In this document: one piece after another, positions 4,101-34,436 of the stretch
How the letters are laid out: each line of letters starts with the position of its first letter
Numbering within the stretch: the stretch's first letter is position 1
Source of the DNA: a virus
Virus record (IMG/VR): IMGVR_UViG_3300030328_002261
Location: 1-34,436 of that record
Strand: one strand, 5' to 3'
DNA: 34,436 nt
Position numbers and translations under genes: made by a program
Notes under the pieces: model-generated
The model's database searches: none
The model's input: the letters and a program-made list of their open reading frames with translations, nothing else
What the model was told of the DNA's origin: nothing

Positions 4101-4241
4101 TTAGCTCTCCTTTTTGGTTATTGTTCTTTGATCCTCAGAACTATATTTATCCATAAAGTTCATTAAATCCTTTAATATCCAATTAATATGCTGTTCACAC
4201 TTTTCGCAGCTTTTGGCTTTGGTGCATTTTTTACACTTCAT
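4101..4241 (-). CDS. Zinc-knuckle-like microprotein (46 aa)
   Basis: The frame runs from ATG 4241-4239 to TAA 4103-4101, one base before the next microprotein. The start MKCKKCTKAKSCEKCEQH holds CxxC ... CxxC plus a His within 18 residues, a compact metal site, followed by an amphipathic helix (NWILKDLMNFMDKY) and a basic end. The stop lies in the spacer of the downstream gene's ribosome site, so the two are likely co-translated. No family assignment. The Cys spacing suggests a zinc finger that could bind nucleic acid or a host protein. Confidence 0.6.
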   Translation of the reverse strand: MKCKKCTKAKSCEKCEQHINWILKDLMNFMDKYSSEDQRTITKKES

Positions 4242-4243
4242 TG

Positions 4244-4636
4244 TTAATCTCTTTCTGTTATTATTTTTAAGTTAATAATTTCATAATTTGATTTATCTAC
4301 TTCGTAGTATTTACCATCTGATTTTAAAATATGAAGATCATCATTTTCTTGCCATTGGAATTGGAATAGATTTCCTACCTTGTCTTTTGCATACCATCCT
4401 AAGTAATCATCCAATAACCACTTATTAAATGATTCTATCCAACTACCATTAGGTTTGTGTTTTATATCCCATTCTTTCCATTCCCTGTGCATTTCATAAA
4501 TCAATGTGTAAATATCCTCCGATGAATCACATTTATTAATATATTCCCTTACTTTGTGATTGTTTGGCTCTGAATCCATTGCCATGTGCAAGATCACAAA
4601 CCTTTCATATTCATCACTATATAATTTGTTCATCAT
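4244..4636 (-). CDS. Hypothetical acidic protein (130 aa)
   Basis: A longer in-frame start exists at 4663. ATG 4636 is preferred because AAAGGAG lies 8 bases upstream and because it overlaps the stop of the preceding gene (ATGA at 4636-4633). The product begins MMNKLYSDEYERFVILHMAM and is rich in Trp and acidic residues (WKEWDIKHKPNGSW). A C-terminal beta-rich part ends in NLKIITERD. No motif recognised and no membrane segment. Part of the leftward cluster. Confidence 0.65.
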   Translation of the reverse strand: MMNKLYSDEYERFVILHMAMDSEPNNHKVREYINKCDSSEDIYTLIYEMHREWKEWDIKHKPNGSWIESFNKWLLDDYLGWYAKDKVGNLFQFQWQENDDLHILKSDGKYYEVDKSNYEIINLKIITERD

Positions 4637-4785
4637 CTCTGCAACTCCTTTAACACTATCCATTGTTTTCTGTTAATTGACCATAATAGTTTCCAATTTT
4701 TAAGATCACCAATAAAATCAACTGCTTTTTGTTTTTCGTCAAAACAATATAATTCACATCCTAATTTGTAAGCTGTATAGTCCAT
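4633..4785 (-). CDS. Hypothetical protein (50 aa)
   Basis: The longer frame to 4848 is probably not used. ATG 4785 follows AAAAAGGAGTTACAAAGATA and forms a TAATG overlap with the stop of the 52-aa membrane gene. The peptide begins MDYTAYKLGCELYCFDEKQK and continues to NWKLLWSINRKQWIVLKELQR. The end of this protein (KELQR) is the same as the end of the upstream 52-aa protein, because both stop in similar AAAGGAGTTRCARAGAT segments. This hints at duplicated gene-junction sequence. Confidence 0.6.
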   Translation of the reverse strand: MDYTAYKLGCELYCFDEKQKAVDFIGDLKNWKLLWSINRKQWIVLKELQR

Positions 4786-4943
4786 TATCTTTGTAACTCC
4801 TTTTTCATGTTTATTTGCTTGGTTAACATCATTGCGGTTTCTCTCCATGAATCGGTGTTATTCCGCTCAATGTTTAAATCTGTCTGATATTTAGCTATTA
4901 TTAAGCCAAATATCATTATTATGATTGCTAATATGTTGATCAT
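4785..4943 (-). CDS. Single-pass membrane microprotein (52 aa)
   Basis: ATG 4943-4941 follows GGAGAGTAAATA and the frame ends at TAA 4787-4785. Residues 1-17 (MINILAIIIMIFGLIIA) form one hydrophobic helix. A short charged tail follows, ending NMKKELQR. The coding sequence also contains the ribosome site for the next gene. N-terminal anchor with a cytoplasmic tail is inferred from the positive tail residues. Function unknown; small membrane proteins in such clusters are often involved in host takeover or exclusion, but nothing here proves that. Confidence 0.6.
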   Translation of the reverse strand: MINILAIIIMIFGLIIAKYQTDLNIERNNTDSWRETAMMLTKQINMKKELQR

Positions 4944-4946
4944 TAT

Positions 4947-5252
4947 TTACTCTCCTTTATTATTTTTTATAGTTCCTGAATTATTACATGAATCACAATC
5001 ATCAATTATTTCATCGGGATGTCTGAGATTTCTCATACAATCAGAACATTCCTCACCGAAATAATGAATGACACCTTTTTTATCCACTATATATTCATCA
5101 CTCATCTCACATTGTTGTTTAGCATCTTTTAAAGTTTTAAATATTGCTATCTTGCTTTCATCTTCATTAGCTGAATCATAACCAAATCCACCCTCAACCT
5201 CTAATAGAGGTTCATCCCTACCTAAACATTCTAATTTTATATAGTATTCCAT
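4947..5252 (-). CDS. Hypothetical protein with C-terminal CxxC pairs (101 aa)
   Basis: ATG 5252 is preceded by AAAAAGGAGAGTAAATA. The N-terminal 60 residues look like a small alpha/beta domain (MEYYIKLECLGRDE and then FKTLKDAKQQCEMSDEYIV). The C-terminal third has ECSDC and CDSC, a likely zinc-binding tail. The stop codon falls inside the ribosome-binding spacer of the downstream membrane gene. Acidic overall. No family recognised. Confidence 0.65.
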   Translation of the reverse strand: MEYYIKLECLGRDEPLLEVEGGFGYDSANEDESKIAIFKTLKDAKQQCEMSDEYIVDKKGVIHYFGEECSDCMRNLRHPDEIIDDCDSCNNSGTIKNNKGE

Positions 5253-5269
5253 TATTTACTCTCCTTTTT

Positions 5270-5330
5270 TTCTCCGAGGGGTAAGGGTGGGGCGTTGCTA
5301 TGCGGAGCTACCCCACCCTTTGAGGGAGAA
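5270..5330. promoter_or_regulatory. Strong GC-rich hairpin between two leftward genes
   Basis: AAGGGTGGGG (5283-5292) pairs perfectly with CCCCACCCTT (5311-5320). An outer stem TTCTCC (5270-5275) / GGAGAA (5325-5330) adds to it. It stands out in AT-rich surroundings. In the leftward direction it is followed by AAAAAAAGGAG, the ribosome site of the next gene, not by a T-run, so it is not an ordinary terminator for that operon. In the rightward direction it is followed by AAAATTTTATTTT. An RNA-processing, stability or translation-control element is the best reading. Its loop contains ATGCGGAGCTA, the reverse complement of TAGCTCCGCAT at 6837-6847. Confidence 0.6.
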
Positions 5331-5334
5331 AATT

Positions 5335-5496
5335 TTATTTTGTTAATTTTAGTTTTAAGTAATACCACATTCTTTTTAATTGATAGCCTAAATAGGTTTC
5401 ATTATCCCTCAATAAATGGTATTTATCTGTCATTATAGCCCATTCTAGCTGCTGATCTTTAAGCTGATAATGAATTTCTCTTTTGTTATCTTGCAT
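5335..5496 (-). CDS. Hypothetical basic protein (53 aa)
   Basis: A 98-codon frame extends upstream to 5631, but ATG 5496 with AAAGGAGAATAAAAGCT before it is the likely start. The longer version would overlap the 201-aa gene, which ends at 5516. The peptide starts MQDNKREIHYQLKDQQLEWA and ends in YLKLKLTK. It is helical and basic at the C-terminus. No family recognised. Confidence 0.55.
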   Translation of the reverse strand: MQDNKREIHYQLKDQQLEWAIMTDKYHLLRDNETYLGYQLKRMWYYLKLKLTK

Positions 5497-5515
5497 AGCT
5501 TTTATTCTCCTTTGG

Positions 5516-6121
5516 TTAATTGATTCTGTAACAATAGTAAAAATTGTTATTGATGTATTGTTCATGTTCCTCTCCATCGTAAAAACTGATAAAATGCCCT
5601 CTACCGTCTGAATTAATAGCATCTTCGACAAAGTAATCTTTATCCTTTATCATTCGTAATATTGCATCGTTTGAGCCTTCGCATTTGTCTTGCAATAGCT
5701 TAAATACTTCTTCGTCAATGTCAGTATGATATGAAAGGAAAGAGGGATTAAACGCCCAAACGGAATCCAGGATGTATTCCTCGGCTCTTTCGTCTGCCTC
5801 TTCGTCTGATAAGCAAATCCAATCTTCATCAATAATTAATTCTATTGCTTCCTTTGGTGTTACCTCTGCCGATTGACTTACCGCAATGACTCGAGGATCT
5901 GTCAGCGAATACCCATTTATAAGGCTTTCCCTTTGCCTTTTTAGGCGTTTTTCTTTCTCTGCCTTTACTTGTTTATACTCTGCATAAAAAGAGGTATCTT
6001 GGTTGTTTTCTTCCATTGATTTAATTGCCTCTTCATCGGTTTTATTAAATCTGCTTTTCATGTATTGGAATAATTCAAAGCCTGTTAATTGTGATGTGTG
6101 TTTGTCTACTTGTTTTATCAT
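5516..6121 (-). CDS. Hypothetical acidic protein (201 aa)
   Basis: Largest gene of the leftward cluster. ATG 6121 is preceded by CTCTAAAAAGGAGAAATAAAACC. The product is strongly acidic in its second half. It has a charged helical segment (YKQVKAEKEKRLKRQRES) in the middle, and its C-terminal part contains SDGRGHFISFYDGEEHE and ends YYCYRIN. Similar ends occur in uncharacterised proteins of other phages, as far as I can recall, but I cannot name a family. The high negative charge would fit a DNA-mimic-like or host-protein-binding role; that is speculation. Confidence 0.65.
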   Translation of the reverse strand: MIKQVDKHTSQLTGFELFQYMKSRFNKTDEEAIKSMEENNQDTSFYAEYKQVKAEKEKRLKRQRESLINGYSLTDPRVIAVSQSAEVTPKEAIELIIDEDWICLSDEEADERAEEYILDSVWAFNPSFLSYHTDIDEEVFKLLQDKCEGSNDAILRMIKDKDYFVEDAINSDGRGHFISFYDGEEHEQYINNNFYYCYRIN

Positions 6122-6148
6122 GGTTTTATTTCTCCTTTTTAGAGGGGT

Positions 6149-6361
6149 TTAAATATTTTTGAAGTAATGGTTATTAAGTATCTCGCTAAATATTGATCTG
6201 CTTTCTGAGTCCATTTGGCAAATAAAGTCAATACCATCCTTTTTATATCTATTATGCCACTGTTTTTTATATGATGGACTCGCTGTGCTTCCGAACCTTT
6301 TTTCTAAAAATTCGTCAATTAGTTCTTTCATTTTAAGGTCTATGTTTTCTTTTGTAATCAT
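6149..6361 (-). CDS. Hypothetical protein (70 aa)
   Basis: Start ATG 6361 is chosen over 6394 because CTCTAAAAAGGAGAAATAAT sits just upstream, as in the neighbouring genes. The product begins MITKENIDLKMKELIDEFLE and is helical, with an aromatic stretch SYKKQWHNRYKKDGIDFI. No motif recognised. Followed after 27 bases by the 201-aa gene. Confidence 0.6.
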   Translation of the reverse strand: MITKENIDLKMKELIDEFLEKRFGSTASPSYKKQWHNRYKKDGIDFICQMDSESRSIFSEILNNHYFKNI

Positions 6362-6365
6362 TTTA

Positions 6366-6605
6366 TTATTTCTCCTTTTTAGAGCGGTTTTCATTGGTTT
6401 CGTACTCTTCGATAAAGTTCATTATCTCGGCATAATTACCAAGTGCTAAAGCAGTATCTTTATAATAGAGTTGAAATGCAATCTTGACAGTACCACATTT
6501 AAAAACTTGTACTATTGGTTTTACTTTTTCGTTATCTTGACAATGTCTGTTTAAGTCTGTAAGTAAACTCACTAATTTTTTTTCTTGTTTTGGTTCTAAT
6601 CTCAT
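6366..6605 (-). CDS. Hypothetical protein (79 aa)
   Basis: ATG 6605 follows CTCTAAAAAGGAAAAATAATAAA. The protein begins MRLEPKQEKKLVSLLTDLNR and ends NRSKKEK. Its last codons are written by the same CTCTAAAAAGGAGAAA cassette that serves as ribosome site for the next gene, so coding and translation signals are shared. No family recognised. Confidence 0.6.
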   Translation of the reverse strand: MRLEPKQEKKLVSLLTDLNRHCQDNEKVKPIVQVFKCGTVKIAFQLYYKDTALALGNYAEIMNFIEEYETNENRSKKEK

Positions 6606-24927: not shown

Positions 24928-27027
24928 ATGGCAAGTTTAACAGGATCAAGTATAGCATCATCGTATGAGCAATTATTGGCTCTTCCAGATGGTGGATTAA
25001 ATGGCACAACATTAGTTGCAATAACAGACGGAGACAGTTCAACAGAGGTTGGATTTAAAATAAGTACAAATGCTTTAAGCATGAATAGTACAAACCAACT
25101 TCAGTTTGGAGATACAGGAACATATATACATCAATCAGCAGATGGTGTTTTAGATTTAGTAAGTGATACAACTTTAGAGTTAAATGGCGGTGCTGGTAGT
25201 ATGAAAATAGATGCCAACTCCAGAATCTCACTTGGTAATAATGATTCTAGTGGTGCAGACAGTTGTACAATATTCGGATATTTAGCTGGTGATAAAATTG
25301 AAAGTGGTGGTACACATAATACACTTATCGGAAGGCAATCTGGAAATCAAGGTACTTATGGAATCACAACTGGAGACCATAATACAGGTTTAGGCTCAAA
25401 TTCACTTGGAGGCTCTGCTGGCGCTCATATTACTGGAAGTTCTAACACTGCTATTGGTAGCCAAGCAATGACTGAAGCTGAAGGTGCAGTTGCTGAAAAT
25501 ACAGCTATCGGTTATAACTCTATGTTGGATATTACTACAGGAACTGAAAATACAGCCATAGGTTCTGGTTCACACGCCAATTTAACTGATGGTGCAAATA
25601 ATGTTGTTGTAGGATGTAATGCTTTAAATACAGCTACAACTCAAGACGAATGTGTTGCTATCGGTAAAGGAGCTTTATATGCCTTAAACCATGATGATGC
25701 TGATGGAACAGTAGCGATAGGATTTGAGGCTGGTGTTGCTATTACTTCTGCGATAGGTAGTACGGCTATTGGTTATAAATCATTGCGTGGGACTACAACT
25801 GGAGATAAGAATACAGCGATAGGTTTTGAATCTGCTATTGGTCTAACAACTGGAAGTGAGTCGGTTATAATTGGATATCAAAGTGGTGCATCATCCACTA
25901 TTGGTAATAAAAATGTCCTAGTGGGTATGTATTCGGGTAATACAATAGTAGAAGATTCAAATAATACTGCTGTTGGTTATAGTGCATTAATAAATGCTAA
26001 TGGTGGTGGTTCAGATGGAAGTGCGACAGATACAAATAACACAGCGATAGGATACAATTCTGGCGATGTAATAACCACAGGAACAAATATTACTTGTCTT
26101 GGGGCAAATACCGACCCAAGTGCAAATAATGCATCTAATCAAACTGTAATAGGTCAAGGCACAACAGGAGTAGCGGATAATTCTGTAACACTTGGTAATG
26201 CCTCTGTAACTGCTGTTTATATGGCACAAGATAGTGGTGCTAAAGTTCATATGGGTGATTTTCACTTACAAAATCCTACGTCTTATACTTATAATGACAA
26301 TGCTTCGAATGAACTTTGTTCTTTTGAGGCAAGGTTTACAGGGCATCCATCAGGAACAACAGGGGCGCATATAGCTTTTAGAGCATCATCGGATAGTTTT
26401 ACCTCTGGAACTGAAACTGCCCGTATCGCAAATATTGGAACTTCTGGAGCTTTAAATTCTAATTATAGTTCTTCTTTAGAGTTTCATGTTATAAGCGGTC
26501 ACACCATGACAAAAACCCTTACAATAGGAAGTTCAGATGGTAATGATAGGGTGCAGTTGCATAAAGGTAGATTACAATTCCCAGCTAGTCAAAATGCAGA
26601 TTCAGATGCAAATACTTTGGATGACTACGAAGAAGGCTATTTTACAGGTGCTTTAACTTGTGGTTCAGGCACAGTAACTGTCAATGGAAGTTATGACCAA
26701 TTAGCATATACAAAAATTGGCAGAATGGTTCATGTTCAAGGTGCATTAGTTATGAGTTCTATCAGTAGCCCTTCAGGTACTTTGGTTGTAAATCTTCCAT
26801 TTACAAGTGGAACATTGACTGAAGCGGCAGACTTTGTAACAGGAGTTGCTTCTTATACTGGTGTTAATGCTTTGAAATCTGCATCTCTATTAGGAGTAAG
26901 AATTGGTCAGGGAGCTAATACTGCATCCCTTGTAGAATTTACTACAACTACAGAAGATGGTTCAGATGCCGCAGATAATATTACAGCATCAACTCAAATA
27001 TATTTTGGATTCTCATATATGGTGTAA
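24928..27027 (+). CDS. Tail fibre / receptor-binding protein with NTAIG repeats (699 aa)
   Basis: The N-terminal 120 residues (MASLTGSSIASSYEQLLALP, then LSMNSTNQLQFGDTGT) are an attachment part. From about residue 130 to 410 there are many degenerate repeats of the form G-x-x-N-T-A-I-G-Y-x-S/A (NTAIGSQAM, NTAIGYNSM, NTAIGSGSH, NTAIGFES, NTAVGYSA), as in trimeric adhesin heads and phage fibres that form a beta-roll. The last 200 residues, starting near LDDYEEGYFTGAL, look like the receptor-binding tip. No S74 chaperone/peptidase is seen. This is the likely host-range determinant. Confidence 0.8.
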   Translation: MASLTGSSIASSYEQLLALPDGGLNGTTLVAITDGDSSTEVGFKISTNALSMNSTNQLQFGDTGTYIHQSADGVLDLVSDTTLELNGGAGSMKIDANSRISLGNNDSSGADSCTIFGYLAGDKIESGGTHNTLIGRQSGNQGTYGITTGDHNTGLGSNSLGGSAGAHITGSSNTAIGSQAMTEAEGAVAENTAIGYNSMLDITTGTENTAIGSGSHANLTDGANNVVVGCNALNTATTQDECVAIGKGALYALNHDDADGTVAIGFEAGVAITSAIGSTAIGYKSLRGTTTGDKNTAIGFESAIGLTTGSESVIIGYQSGASSTIGNKNVLVGMYSGNTIVEDSNNTAVGYSALINANGGGSDGSATDTNNTAIGYNSGDVITTGTNITCLGANTDPSANNASNQTVIGQGTTGVADNSVTLGNASVTAVYMAQDSGAKVHMGDFHLQNPTSYTYNDNASNELCSFEARFTGHPSGTTGAHIAFRASSDSFTSGTETARIANIGTSGALNSNYSSSLEFHVISGHTMTKTLTIGSSDGNDRVQLHKGRLQFPASQNADSDANTLDDYEEGYFTGALTCGSGTVTVNGSYDQLAYTKIGRMVHVQGALVMSSISSPSGTLVVNLPFTSGTLTEAADFVTGVASYTGVNALKSASLLGVRIGQGANTASLVEFTTTTEDGSDAADNITASTQIYFGFSYMV

Positions 27028-30093: not shown

Positions 30094-30105
30094 TATTTTA
30101 TCTTC

Positions 30106-30150
30106 GGAGGGGTGGCAGAGTCTGGCTGAATGCACTGGTCTTGAAAACCG
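30106..30150 (+). pseudogene. 5' half of tRNA-Ser(UGA), acceptor strand to anticodon arm
   Basis: GGAGGGG (30106-30112) is the 5' acceptor strand. GCA...TGC around GAGTCTGGCTGAA is the D arm, and GGT-CTTGAAA-ACC (30137-30149) is the anticodon arm with TGA at 30142-30144. The match to bacterial tRNA-Ser(UGA) stops near 30150: no variable arm, no T arm (no TTCRA) and no 3' acceptor follow. It marks the identity block with the host attB, in a tRNA-Ser gene. Usually phages carry the 3' part; carrying the 5' part is less common. Confidence 0.75.
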
Positions 30151-30256
30151 ATCCGACCTTCCTCGTTACATTTTATTTTCCCTCGTAAAATACACTCTCA
30201 TTCATCATCATAAGTAGTAGTAAGTTGTAGTAAATATGACACATTAATGACACACT

Positions 30257-31207
30257 TTATATATTATAAATAGCAGGTTTAAACTTGGATACACTTTTAT
30301 GAATATATCGCCAGGTAATATCATCTATTCTATGTCCCATTAAAAACTTCACTTCTAAATACTCTAATCCTTGTTCTTCTAGTCTTTCACCATAAGTATG
30401 TCTGATACTATGATAATCACCTTCTTCTCCAAATTCTTTTAATCTTCTTTGTAAACGCAAAGTAACAGATCTTCTTTTTGATTTCTTAGGTTTTAGGTTC
30501 ACTAAATCCATTGAATTGAATATAGGATGTTTTGGAACTACGCATTTTCTTCCCACTTTACCTTGTTTCCATACAAAATATTCATCATGGATCTCATCTT
30601 TTGTGATTGTCCCTGCATCTTTAGCGCGAAATCCTGCGTATAGAGCAAGACTAAACATGGCTTTATCTTTAGGATCAGTAGTAGTGTTAATGATTTCCTT
30701 TATAATATGTAAGGGGATAGGGTCGCGTACATCTTCTGAGGTGTCAATCCGCGCAACAAAAAAGGGATCAGCAGGGTTACTAAATGCCATTCTTCTCATT
30801 TGAGCGTACTTAAACAAACCAGAGATCATAGATAACTCATGGTTAACCGTATTCCCTGATACCGATTTCATTCTATACTTCTTAAATGCGGTAATATGTT
30901 CAATATCCATATTACTTATATCCATAGAAGCATACATAGTTTTAAAGGTTTGTAGACCATACTCTACTCGTTCACTCCAATCTTTCTTTTTATTGTCTTT
31001 GTGCCATAGTAGATAGGAGTCAATAAACTTGGCAAGGTTAGGGGATGCGGTCAAACCCTGCCTTTCATATTTTTCGTCAAATTCTTTCTGCTTTATTTTC
31101 GCAGCATGATGATTGGTTTGCCCTGTACTTCGTCTTATTCGATTGGGTGCTGTCCCTGTAGTATATTGATAGTATTTAGAGCCAGGGCGTTTTCTTATCT
31201 TACTCAA
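30257..31207 (-). CDS. int: Tyrosine recombinase integrase (316 aa)
   Basis: Length and motifs fit phage lambda-type integrases. An N-terminal Arg/Lys-rich part (MSKIRKRPGSKYYQYTTGTA) could be the arm-binding domain and residues of about 55-145 the SAM-like core-binding domain. The catalytic domain has Arg194 (AGFRAKD), a Lys in KVGRK near 217, His266-x-x-Arg269 (HSIRHT), His292 (MGHRIDD) and the nucleophile Tyr301 (WRYIH). All required residues are present, so it should be active. It lies next to attP, reading towards it. The last codon is 3 bases after the right-hand arm repeats. It should integrate the phage at the tRNA-Ser gene. Confidence 0.93.
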   Translation of the reverse strand: MSKIRKRPGSKYYQYTTGTAPNRIRRSTGQTNHHAAKIKQKEFDEKYERQGLTASPNLAKFIDSYLLWHKDNKKKDWSERVEYGLQTFKTMYASMDISNMDIEHITAFKKYRMKSVSGNTVNHELSMISGLFKYAQMRRMAFSNPADPFFVARIDTSEDVRDPIPLHIIKEIINTTTDPKDKAMFSLALYAGFRAKDAGTITKDEIHDEYFVWKQGKVGRKCVVPKHPIFNSMDLVNLKPKKSKRRSVTLRLQRRLKEFGEEGDYHSIRHTYGERLEEQGLEYLEVKFLMGHRIDDITWRYIHKSVSKFKPAIYNI

Positions 31208-31218
31208 TTATAAATTAT

Positions 31219-32022
31219 CTAATCATTCATAAAATTTAGCTTACAAACTATCCTTTTTTCCCACCAAAGAATCTTAGCAGTTACATTAACTGGAACTTTG
31301 TGACCTTCTTTATGGATATAATAGTATTGCATTGTATAAAAATGATCCCCTATAATAGTTTCTTCATCTTTCATTTTTTTAGGCAAATCTTCTGATTGAT
31401 TTTTAAACTTTTCTCTTGAATCTTTATCAATAATTTTATCTATAGGGTGATTGGCAAATTTATGCTTAACACCTAAATCCCAATAATCTTCCATTTCTTG
31501 CTTAGTATAGCCTAACATTTTTGGAAACATTTCGATATTTGTAATGCTATTTATAGTTCTGGTAATTCCTCTTAATCCAAATCCGATACTTACATCGAAT
31601 AAACAATCATAAGGTTGGGAATCAAAACTTGCATTTTCTATGGTTTTTCTATTTAATGCGGATTTTAATTGAGCTATTTCGTTTTTAAGATATCCTATAT
31701 ATCCTCTTTTTTCATCTAAATCTTGTAACAGATCGTTTGTACTAATTTTATTTACGGTGCTATTCACTTTTTTGTCTCCTTCTATTGTGATTTGGTTCTC
31801 TTCTACTTGTACTCCTTGACTTTGTACTATTTCTCCTGCCCCTGAAATTATTTGATCATACTCAATCATAAATCTTTGTGGTACTCCGCGCTTATACCAC
31901 TGTGCCACCGCAGAAGGTGACACTTTTAATTTCTTTGCTAAAGCATCATCTGTATATATCTTAAGGTGATTCTTTATTTTACTAATGAAATCTTTATATA
32001 TATTAAGGTTTTTATCTTGCAT
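31219..32022 (-). CDS. CI-type repressor with PAS-like C-terminal domain (267 aa)
   Basis: Residues of about 20-55 form a helix-turn-helix of the bacteriophage CI type (YTDDALAKKLKVSPSAVAQW, then KRGVPQRFM). A linker of about 45 residues and a coiled coil (99-128) follow. The C-terminal part (about 142-264) reads like a PAS domain: NSITNIEMFPKMLGYTKQEM, a D-x-x-x-R-E-K-F helix and the strands MQYYYIHKEGHKVPVNVTAK. No Ser-Lys LexA/S24 protease motif (A/C-G cleavage, Ser, Lys) is found. This points to a repressor that senses a ligand, redox state or protein instead of RecA-driven self-cleavage. Divergent from the excisionase-like gene, as expected for the lysogeny switch. The start lacks a strong ribosome site. 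Confidence 0.75.
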   Translation of the reverse strand: MQDKNLNIYKDFISKIKNHLKIYTDDALAKKLKVSPSAVAQWYKRGVPQRFMIEYDQIISGAGEIVQSQGVQVEENQITIEGDKKVNSTVNKISTNDLLQDLDEKRGYIGYLKNEIAQLKSALNRKTIENASFDSQPYDCLFDVSIGFGLRGITRTINSITNIEMFPKMLGYTKQEMEDYWDLGVKHKFANHPIDKIIDKDSREKFKNQSEDLPKKMKDEETIIGDHFYTMQYYYIHKEGHKVPVNVTAKILWWEKRIVCKLNFMND

Positions 32023-32102
32023 CTTTAGTTTTATTTAGATAACTTTAGATTAAGTTTTGTTAATAAATGTTTAAATAACATGACAAATAATAAGGAATAG
32101 CA
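32023..32102. promoter_or_regulatory. Lysogeny switch region with TTTAG repeats at 10-bp spacing
   Basis: TTTAG occurs at 32024-32028, 32034-32038 and 32044-32048, exactly one helical turn apart and directly upstream of the repressor start (CTAAA on the repressor strand). It is AT-rich throughout and carries the divergent promoters for repressor and early operon. Boxes are not sharp: TTAAGT (32051-32056) with TAAATA (32072-32077) could serve the rightward direction. The AAGGA ribosome site for the next gene is at its right end. Confidence 0.5.
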
Positions 32103-32267
32103 ATGAAAGATACAAGTAATTATTCACTAATGACTACGAAAGAAGCATCTGAGCATTTTAAAGTTTCGCCATATACAATTAGAGTTTGGGCAAAGTCAGG
32201 AAAGATCAAAGAAATCAATCTTGGCTACAGAACAAAACGCTATGACATCAGCGATTTAATCATATAA
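32103..32267 (+). CDS. Excisionase / Cro-like MerR-type HTH protein (54 aa)
   Basis: AATAAGGAATAGCA precedes ATG 32103. The peptide has LMTTKEASEHFKVSPYTIRV, then WAKSGKIKEINLGYRTKRYD, the winged-helix pattern of HTH_17/excisionase proteins (turn K-V-S-P-Y-T-I, wing G-Y-R-T-K-R-Y). It is the first gene of the early operon, divergent from the repressor. It is either the excisionase that directs the integrase to excision or a Cro-type antirepressor; both roles may be combined. Basic and small, as usual. Confidence 0.75.
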   Translation: MKDTSNYSLMTTKEASEHFKVSPYTIRVWAKSGKIKEINLGYRTKRYDISDLII

Positions 32268-32283: not shown

Positions 32284-33159
32284 ATGTTAGAACAGGAACT
32301 ACTACAATCACCGATACCCGTTGAAAGGCATGACCTTGCCAATGGAAGATGGTATTCTCCATTAGAAGATTATTGGGAAGAACATTTTAAAGATGCACCG
32401 ATGATATATAAGCGATCATCTACCACCTTTGAGAATGTCTTAGATAAAGGTATCGGCTTTCACACTTGGTTAGGTAATGCACCTACTTATCAGGATGCTA
32501 TGGATTATGCTAATAAGCGCGCAGCTATAGGAACAATCGTACATGATTACTGTGAACGATTATTATTAGGTACAAAAATAGATTTTGAAAGGGAAACTAA
32601 ATGGCACAATAAAGATACCGATGAATTAGTGCCAATCACCAGAGAGATGATTAAGTATATTATGTCTTTTATGCAGTTTTGTGAGGACTCTCAAGTAAAT
32701 GGAGAGTTTACTACAGAAGCTACAGAGATATGTATGTTTGACTTAGCAGCAGACTCAGAGGGGAATCAGTTACATCCCTGGGCAGGAACTGCGGATTGGG
32801 TAGTGAGGTTAGTTAATAAGAAAGGTGAAGAAGAACGATGGATTGTGGATTGGAAAACAGGGAAACCATATAATGTACATCAACTTCAGTTAACCTCATA
32901 TAAGATATTGTGGGAATCGTTATTCCCTGATTATCCGATAGATGGTGTAGCGTGTCTATACTTGAAGTCAGGATGGCGTAAAGCACCTAACTATACTTTT
33001 AAGAAGTATAAGTGCGATGAAGTAACTTGGAAAAAGGTTGTAGAAGTCTCGGATTGGGCGAATAATAATCCTGTTCCGTCTTTTCCACCAGATTTACCTA
33101 CAACCTTCACATTAGTAGAAGAAGAAGAAGAACAGGAACAACTAAAGGAGTCAGCGTAA
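32284..33159 (+). CDS. RecB/Cas4-like PD-(D/E)XK nuclease (291 aa)
   Basis: Starts at ATG 32284 after AAAAAAGGTAATAGT. Residues of about 90-105 (RAAIGTIVHDYCERLLLG) give the conserved G-x-x-x-H/E helix. Around 165-205 are AGTADWVVRL (Asp), then RWIVDWKTGKPYN (Asp and Lys of the D-x-K pair) and VHQLQLTSYKILW (Q-x-x-x-Y). These are the marks of the PDDEXK_1 (Cas4/RecB C-terminal) family. It should be a DNA exonuclease used in recombination or replication. The C-terminus is a poly-Glu tail (EEEEEQEQLKESA). Coupled to the next gene (TAATG). Confidence 0.85.
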   Translation: MLEQELLQSPIPVERHDLANGRWYSPLEDYWEEHFKDAPMIYKRSSTTFENVLDKGIGFHTWLGNAPTYQDAMDYANKRAAIGTIVHDYCERLLLGTKIDFERETKWHNKDTDELVPITREMIKYIMSFMQFCEDSQVNGEFTTEATEICMFDLAADSEGNQLHPWAGTADWVVRLVNKKGEEERWIVDWKTGKPYNVHQLQLTSYKILWESLFPDYPIDGVACLYLKSGWRKAPNYTFKKYKCDEVTWKKVVEVSDWANNNPVPSFPPDLPTTFTLVEEEEEQEQLKESA

Positions 33160-34365: not shown

Positions 34366-34436
34366 ATGAAGTTTTGGTTACAGTCATTACAAGAAAATGC
34401 TTTTGATGTGTTTATTGTAACAATCGTTATCGTATC
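34366..34436 (+). CDS. Small membrane protein, 5' part (continues at window start)
   Basis: AAAGGAGAATCAA precedes ATG 34366, an excellent ribosome site. The visible 23 codons read MKFWLQSLQENAFDVFIVTI plus VIV, a polar start and the beginning of a hydrophobic helix, and the frame is still open at the edge. Linked to base 1, it continues in frame (TCG AGT TAC TGG) into the gene ending at 169. See the first entry. Confidence 0.7.
   Translation, partial: MKFWLQSLQENAFDVFIVTIVIV

Follow-up and report, generated by a model that had tools for sequence, protein, structure and literature searches.

Which cue ends the dormancy of a phage whose CI-type repressor carries a sensor-like domain in place of the self-cleaving half? 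DNA damage is described as the near-universal driver of prophage induction in the systems studied (PMC10432266), while prophages that act independently of SOS are predicted to be pervasive (PMC12527982). Few mechanisms are known for SOS-independent induction, and a sensor replacing the self-cleaving half of the repressor would be a direct and testable one. We analysed a locus of this kind in an IMG/VR virus record of 34,436 bases and 35.4% G+C, the whole of which is referred to as the window (Table 1). The repressor reading frame starts with an ATG at 32022, and its range counts the stop codon.

Table 1. Coordinates of the repressor, its domains and the neighbouring features in the window
Feature	Position	Strand	Basis
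HTH - coiled coil - PAS lysogeny repressor, 267 aa	31219..32022	-	Open reading frame with Pfam; integrase beside it, Xis-like gene divergent
Phage_CI_repr helix-turn-helix (HTH), residues 11-54	31861..31992	-	Pfam PF07022, 23.5 bits against a cut-off of 22
Short linker block YDQIISGAGEIV, residues 54-65, likely recombination seam	31828..31863	-	blastn islands and similarity breaks
Coiled-coil helix, residues 95-124	31651..31740	-	AlphaFold model H7-36, one long helix
PAS domain, residues about 138-267	31222..31611	-	AlphaFold, Foldseek and VIA-align; weak Pfam PAS_9
Tyrosine integrase, 316 aa, TTG start 11 bases after the repressor stop	30257..31207	-	Pfam Phage_integrase, 42.6 bits
Putative attP core, 5' half of a tRNA-Ser(TGA)-like gene	30105..30152	+	Sequence comparison
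Putative divergent intergenic operator/promoter region, 80 bp	32023..32102	.	Alignment A8, repeats, blastn break
54-aa MerR/HTH_17 excisionase- or Cro-like protein	32103..32267	+	Pfam HTH_17, 35.3 bits; PHROG excisionase/regulator
PD-(D/E)XK exonuclease, first large gene of the rightward early region	32284..33159	+	Pfam/PHROG

The first-pass annotation of this gene had described a CI-like HTH, a coiled coil and a C-terminal part with PAS-like motif order, and had seen no LexA-type Ser/Lys pair. The N-terminal part scores above the Pfam cut-off for Phage_CI_repr, and the protein matches a PHROG annotated as transcriptional regulator (E = 8.7e-6). The coiled coil is likewise recovered, as a long helix in the AlphaFold model. 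Peptidase S24, the domain with the Ser/Lys pair, has no Pfam match in the repressor at E <= 1 and a PAS fold is predicted instead; a repressor without a detectable S24 domain has no visible route to RecA-stimulated self-cleavage. The PAS-like motif is present as described, but its spacing had been misread: it is N-x3-F-x4-G-Y-x3-E-M, not N-x5-F. The only cysteines of the repressor are residue 140, at the N-terminal edge of the PAS domain, and residue 260, in its last strand.

Sequence profiles place the C-terminal half near the PAS families without reaching their thresholds: Pfam PAS_9 matches the full-length protein at E = 0.005 and residues 89-267 at E = 0.002, with 18.8 bits against a curated cut-off of 27. 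A single-sequence AlphaFold model of the full protein was discarded (pLDDT 35.5), and the fold call therefore rests on a family alignment of 15 sequences (A7), built with relatives gathered from viral contigs. The model based on this alignment has a mean pLDDT of 83.7, with most core blocks at 87-95, and its elements follow one another as a long helix, two strands, short helices, a long helix and three strands, which corresponds to the PAS order A-B-C-D-E-F-G-H-I. All nine matches found by Foldseek in the PDB at E <= 0.001 are PAS proteins. The 50 PDB entries listed by VIA-align are without exception PAS, LOV or PAS-containing proteins. A diguanylate cyclase supplies the best of them with its PAS domain (Z 9.8; 101 residues at 2.6 A), and the nearest folds include PAS domains with widely differing roles. 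The best viral match, A0A516M3Q0, is an unnamed 245-aa protein with 30% identity (E = 2.2e-17), so that an unannotated homologue is already public. Structure prediction and profile search, the checks proposed with the first-pass annotation, thus bear it out: the HTH is of the CI family by Pfam, and a PAS fold of the C-terminus, including residues 142-264, is confirmed at the level of the predicted model.

Searches by sequence were less productive. Matches of the repressor (phmmer) and of the sensor profiles (hmmsearch) to PDB sequences were weak only and lay mostly along the coiled coil, and a phage database search returned no relative except an HTH stretch at E = 0.3. A protein of Cellulophaga phage phi19:1 that emerged from the fold search, encoded by a 240-aa gene near a lysozyme gene, was dropped, as no HTH could be recognised in it by eye.

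The locus has, by its gene content, the anatomy of a lysogeny module. The repressor combines a CI-family HTH with a divergent early operon and an adjoining integrase, as is typical of CI-type lysogeny repressors. The integrase adjoins the repressor in the window and in the related contigs L002, L003 and L005; an integrase is also found in 11 of 13 further phage records with PAS repressors, close by in 10 of those. The tRNA-Ser-like sequence beyond the end of the integrase is identical in at least five relatives while the surrounding bases differ, and is the likely attP core; no complete tRNA was called there. On the opposite side, an SSB-like gene comes after the exonuclease. The putative operator region contains an imperfect 16-bp inverted repeat (32030-32045 and 32052-32067, separated by a 6-bp gap), and a promoter scan of the region found nothing. 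The repeat, together with the joint exchange of this region and the HTH described below, provides indirect hints that the repressor binds here.

Several sister contigs persist without the repressor gene, a situation also compatible with the protein being an accessory regulator and not the lysogeny repressor. L006 (IMGVR_UViG_3300030101_001085) retains the first 19 repressor codons and then, at 2823-2890, jumps past the integrase, a deletion of 1.6 kb between flanks 94-97% identical to L007. L066, with flanks 98.5-99.2% identical to the window, yet with a different immunity cassette, has a deletion at 4109-4391 that begins inside the HTH and reaches the end of the integrase, and L084 and L086 miss both the repressor and the integrase between L087-like flanks. 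However, these contigs also have no integrase or a truncated one, meaning that the whole lysogeny module is gone. They look like repeated, independent losses of lysogeny in L006, L066 and L084/L086, with assembly errors possible for single contigs. The position of the gene, the divergent Xis/Cro-like gene and the S24 repressor that fills this slot in L087 indicate a repressor as well, and an accessory role appears very improbable.

The S24 repressor of L087 came to light in a census that involved no selection on the sensor: relatives of the neighbouring exonuclease were collected and the gene upstream was read. Among the 23 loci, some of which derive from contigs already present among the collected repressor relatives, 18 encode a coiled-coil protein with a C-terminal part of class A, B or C (see below), and four have no such gene (L066, L082, which is the same as L006, L084 and L086). 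At L087, an HTH of the same family is fused to Peptidase_S24 (E = 3.6e-10, with 40.0 bits where the cut-off is 23.3); the exonuclease there is 70% identical, and a homologous integrase adjoins the repressor gene. With L087 as the positive control, Peptidase_S24 is detected there and not in the window repressor. PAS and the SOS-type autoprotease therefore share one slot of homologous repressors, which together with the fold matches sustains the initial description of a PAS-like sensor instead of a self-cleaving domain.

The relatives of the window phage, which come from environmental sequence collections, carry at least three classes of C-terminal domain in this slot. The sensor of the window belongs to class B, whose other members have no PAS match by sequence. 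Class A is a second and commoner class (L005, L008, L009, L010, L044 and others), in which seven of 10 members match Pfam PAS_3, the best at E = 3.3e-5, with the listed bit scores just below the cut-off of 25.6. Class C (L068, L072, L085 and L023) has no PAS match by sequence; its end strands, compared by eye, resemble those of class B (HKDG...P...SKIKF). Two of the at least three classes are thus supported as PAS. Class A PAS-like domains were also observed in L013, L048 and L051, which are different phages, fused to other kinds of HTH (HTH_3/HTH_19 in L013), indicating that the sensor cassette travels beyond the phage group of the window.

Comparison of closely related contigs places the breaks in DNA similarity between the DNA-binding part and the sensor. 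The window and L005 share 91% identity in blastn up to about codon 65 of the repressor and again from the start of the integrase, with no DNA similarity detected across the coiled coil and the PAS domain. The alignment with L002 and L003 shows the reverse: identity of 98.5% extends to the inside of the Xis-like gene, no similarity is detected over the operator region plus the HTH, and from about codon 57 it resumes at 82%. DNA islands of 37 and 30 bp within codons 54-65 are common to the window and to L012 and L032, whose DNA diverges to either side of them, making this stretch a likely recombination seam. Alignment of the divergent region (A8) distinguishes three immunity cassettes; from one to another, the operator varies jointly with the repressor HTH and with the N-terminal half of the Xis/Cro-like protein.

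The identities of the encoded proteins follow the same division. The HTH and the sensor are, respectively, 93% and 24% identical between the window and L007, 95% and 23% between L002 and L008, 87% and 32% between L010 and L026, and 82% and 28% between L032 and L044, while the window and L002 display the opposite pattern (35% and 69%). HTH identity of 93-95% can thus coexist with sensor identity of about 23-26%. Clustering of the collected proteins by their HTH produced 19 clusters, six of them with more than one member; five of these six carry two or three sensor classes, and the sixth consists of six close relatives with class B only. The HTH and operator reassort independently of the coiled coil and PAS domain, and the breakpoints in the DNA fall where the domains meet. 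The combination of different sensors with different DNA-binding parts suggests that related viruses leave dormancy on different cues. A broader proposal, on which our confidence is evenly divided, is that temperate phages of this group draw on a common stock of interchangeable sensor cassettes (three classes or more, of which two are PAS-supported) and of immunity cassettes (HTH, operator and Cro/Xis N-terminus). Reassortment at the conserved linker seam would let the induction cue evolve independently of immunity, with S24, responsive to DNA damage, as one cassette.

We consider it likely that the repressor is a one-component CI-type lysogeny switch, in which immunity would lie with the HTH and its operator, and the choice of the inducing cue, independently of RecA, with the exchangeable PAS domain. 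The N-terminal HTH would bind operators in the divergent intergenic region, and the bound repressor would keep the rightward early operon (the Xis/Cro-like protein, exonuclease, SSB and replication) switched off, with the coiled coil and PAS domain presumably dimerising the protein. Binding of a host-derived small molecule, a cofactor state or a host protein to the PAS domain would then change the affinity for DNA and decide induction, which would proceed without RecA-driven self-cleavage. It is reasonable to infer a metabolic or redox trigger rather than SOS. LOV domains are marked by a cysteine motif of the NCRFLQ type, and haem sensing of the FixL type by a histidine on the F helix. The former motif is absent from the repressor, and the long F helix has no histidine, according to the residues read from the sequence and the model, which makes light or FixL-type haem sensing less likely; no cofactor-binding signature was recognised in the repressor.

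Many PAS domains only dimerise. The PAS domain of the repressor might be such a dimerisation or cooperativity module, replacing that role of S24, in which case its diversity would prevent mixed dimers of co-resident repressors and induction would be spontaneous or governed by the repressor level. The coiled coil preceding the PAS domain and the strong divergence of sensor classes even behind near-identical HTHs agree with such a role, as does the requirement of the PAS domain of VqmA for dimerisation (PMC8284805). Avoidance of mixed dimers would, however, favour fixed pairs of HTH and dimeriser, yet one HTH is found with several sensors and one sensor class with several HTHs. In addition, Arg155, His192, Pro193, His227, Tyr235 and Trp253, which are invariant or nearly so in alignment A7, may line a binding site and argue weakly against a purely dimerising function, which on the whole we regard as unlikely.

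The domain might instead be the place where an antirepressor, encoded by the phage or the host, docks and inactivates the repressor, in the way that Qtip, Tum or Ant act on others. PAS domains often bind proteins, many short open reading frames of the window have no assigned function, and small antirepressors targeting CI-type repressors are known (PMC10432266; PMC3121763). Against this stands the comparison of the window with L005, where the flanks are about 91% identical on both sides and contain no gene that co-varies with the sensor class. The same observation favours a host-derived cue, as the one-component switch would have it, and antirepressor docking seems to us improbable, more so than a purely dimerising role, although an antirepressor gene elsewhere in the genome is conceivable.

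Clues to the host are few. Shine-Dalgarno-like sites before 18 of the 29 window genes argue against a Bacteroidota host. The class A sensor profile found no relative in genome_contigs, and the tRNA-Ser-like att core, searched as an exact 34-bp pattern, had no match in genome_contigs, nor, as a variant, in viral_contigs; the last core bases of these patterns are perhaps phage-specific, and the absence of matches says little about the host. PHROGs for a large terminase, portal, major head protein, primase/helicase and exonuclease are present in the window. Its two ends (1-47 and 34368-34414) both align to positions 6585-6631 of L066, which continues from the window end into its start, so that the record probably represents a permuted genome that is nearly complete. 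A minus-strand cluster of small genes with no PHROG function occupies 4244-6605, between primase/helicase and terminase. A 699-aa protein encoded at 24928-27027 contains many repeats of the NTAIGYNS type and matches tail spike/virion structural PHROGs; the gene in the same place of L002 (8643-9635) ends in a chaperone-like tail of the ERTKKDIQDY type.

Several sensors occur naturally behind one immunity type, and S24 in one case behind an HTH of this family, providing ready natural chimeras. These make it possible to ask which cue each phage heeds and how co-resident phages avoid one common trigger. Phages with PAS regulators are already known, and so are repressors that are not cleaved. A PAS domain in a CI-type repressor was described in no paper of the literature searched, the scope of which excluded most subscription papers; in the same literature we did not find PAS as the C-terminal half of such a repressor, in alternation with S24 and in changing combinations with immunity.

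The window repressor resembles the lambda-type CI and LexA-like repressors (HTH with Peptidase_S24) in its CI-family HTH, its divergent operator with a Cro/Xis-like gene and the neighbouring integrase, and differs from them in the C-terminus, which is PAS with S24 undetectable; the repressor of L087 represents the lambda-type kind at the same locus. P2 C and 186 CI (with Tum) are repressors without SOS cleavage. Self-cleavage is absent from them, as it would be from the window repressor, but they are not known to have a sensor domain of the PAS type. The TF-smORF and XRE-LuxR modules of linear plasmid phages share with the proposed switch an SOS-independent, cue-specific induction; there, a separate regulator makes a small CI-inactivating protein, whereas in the window the sensor and the repressor are one protein (PMC10432266).

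The closest experimental precedent is VqmA-phage of vibriophage VP882, a phage-encoded PAS one-component regulator that controls induction without DNA damage, as the window repressor would (PMC12802170, PMC8284805). Its PAS domain sets the DNA-binding affinity through the ligand and is needed for dimerisation, and its DNA-binding domain sets selectivity (PMC8284805). VqmA-phage senses the autoinducer DPO and activates the antirepressor gene qtip, and a separate CI remains (PMC12802170, PMC8284805). It is an activator with an N-terminal PAS domain and a C-terminal HTH, whereas the window protein has the order HTH, coil and PAS, with the sensor placed inside the repressor itself.
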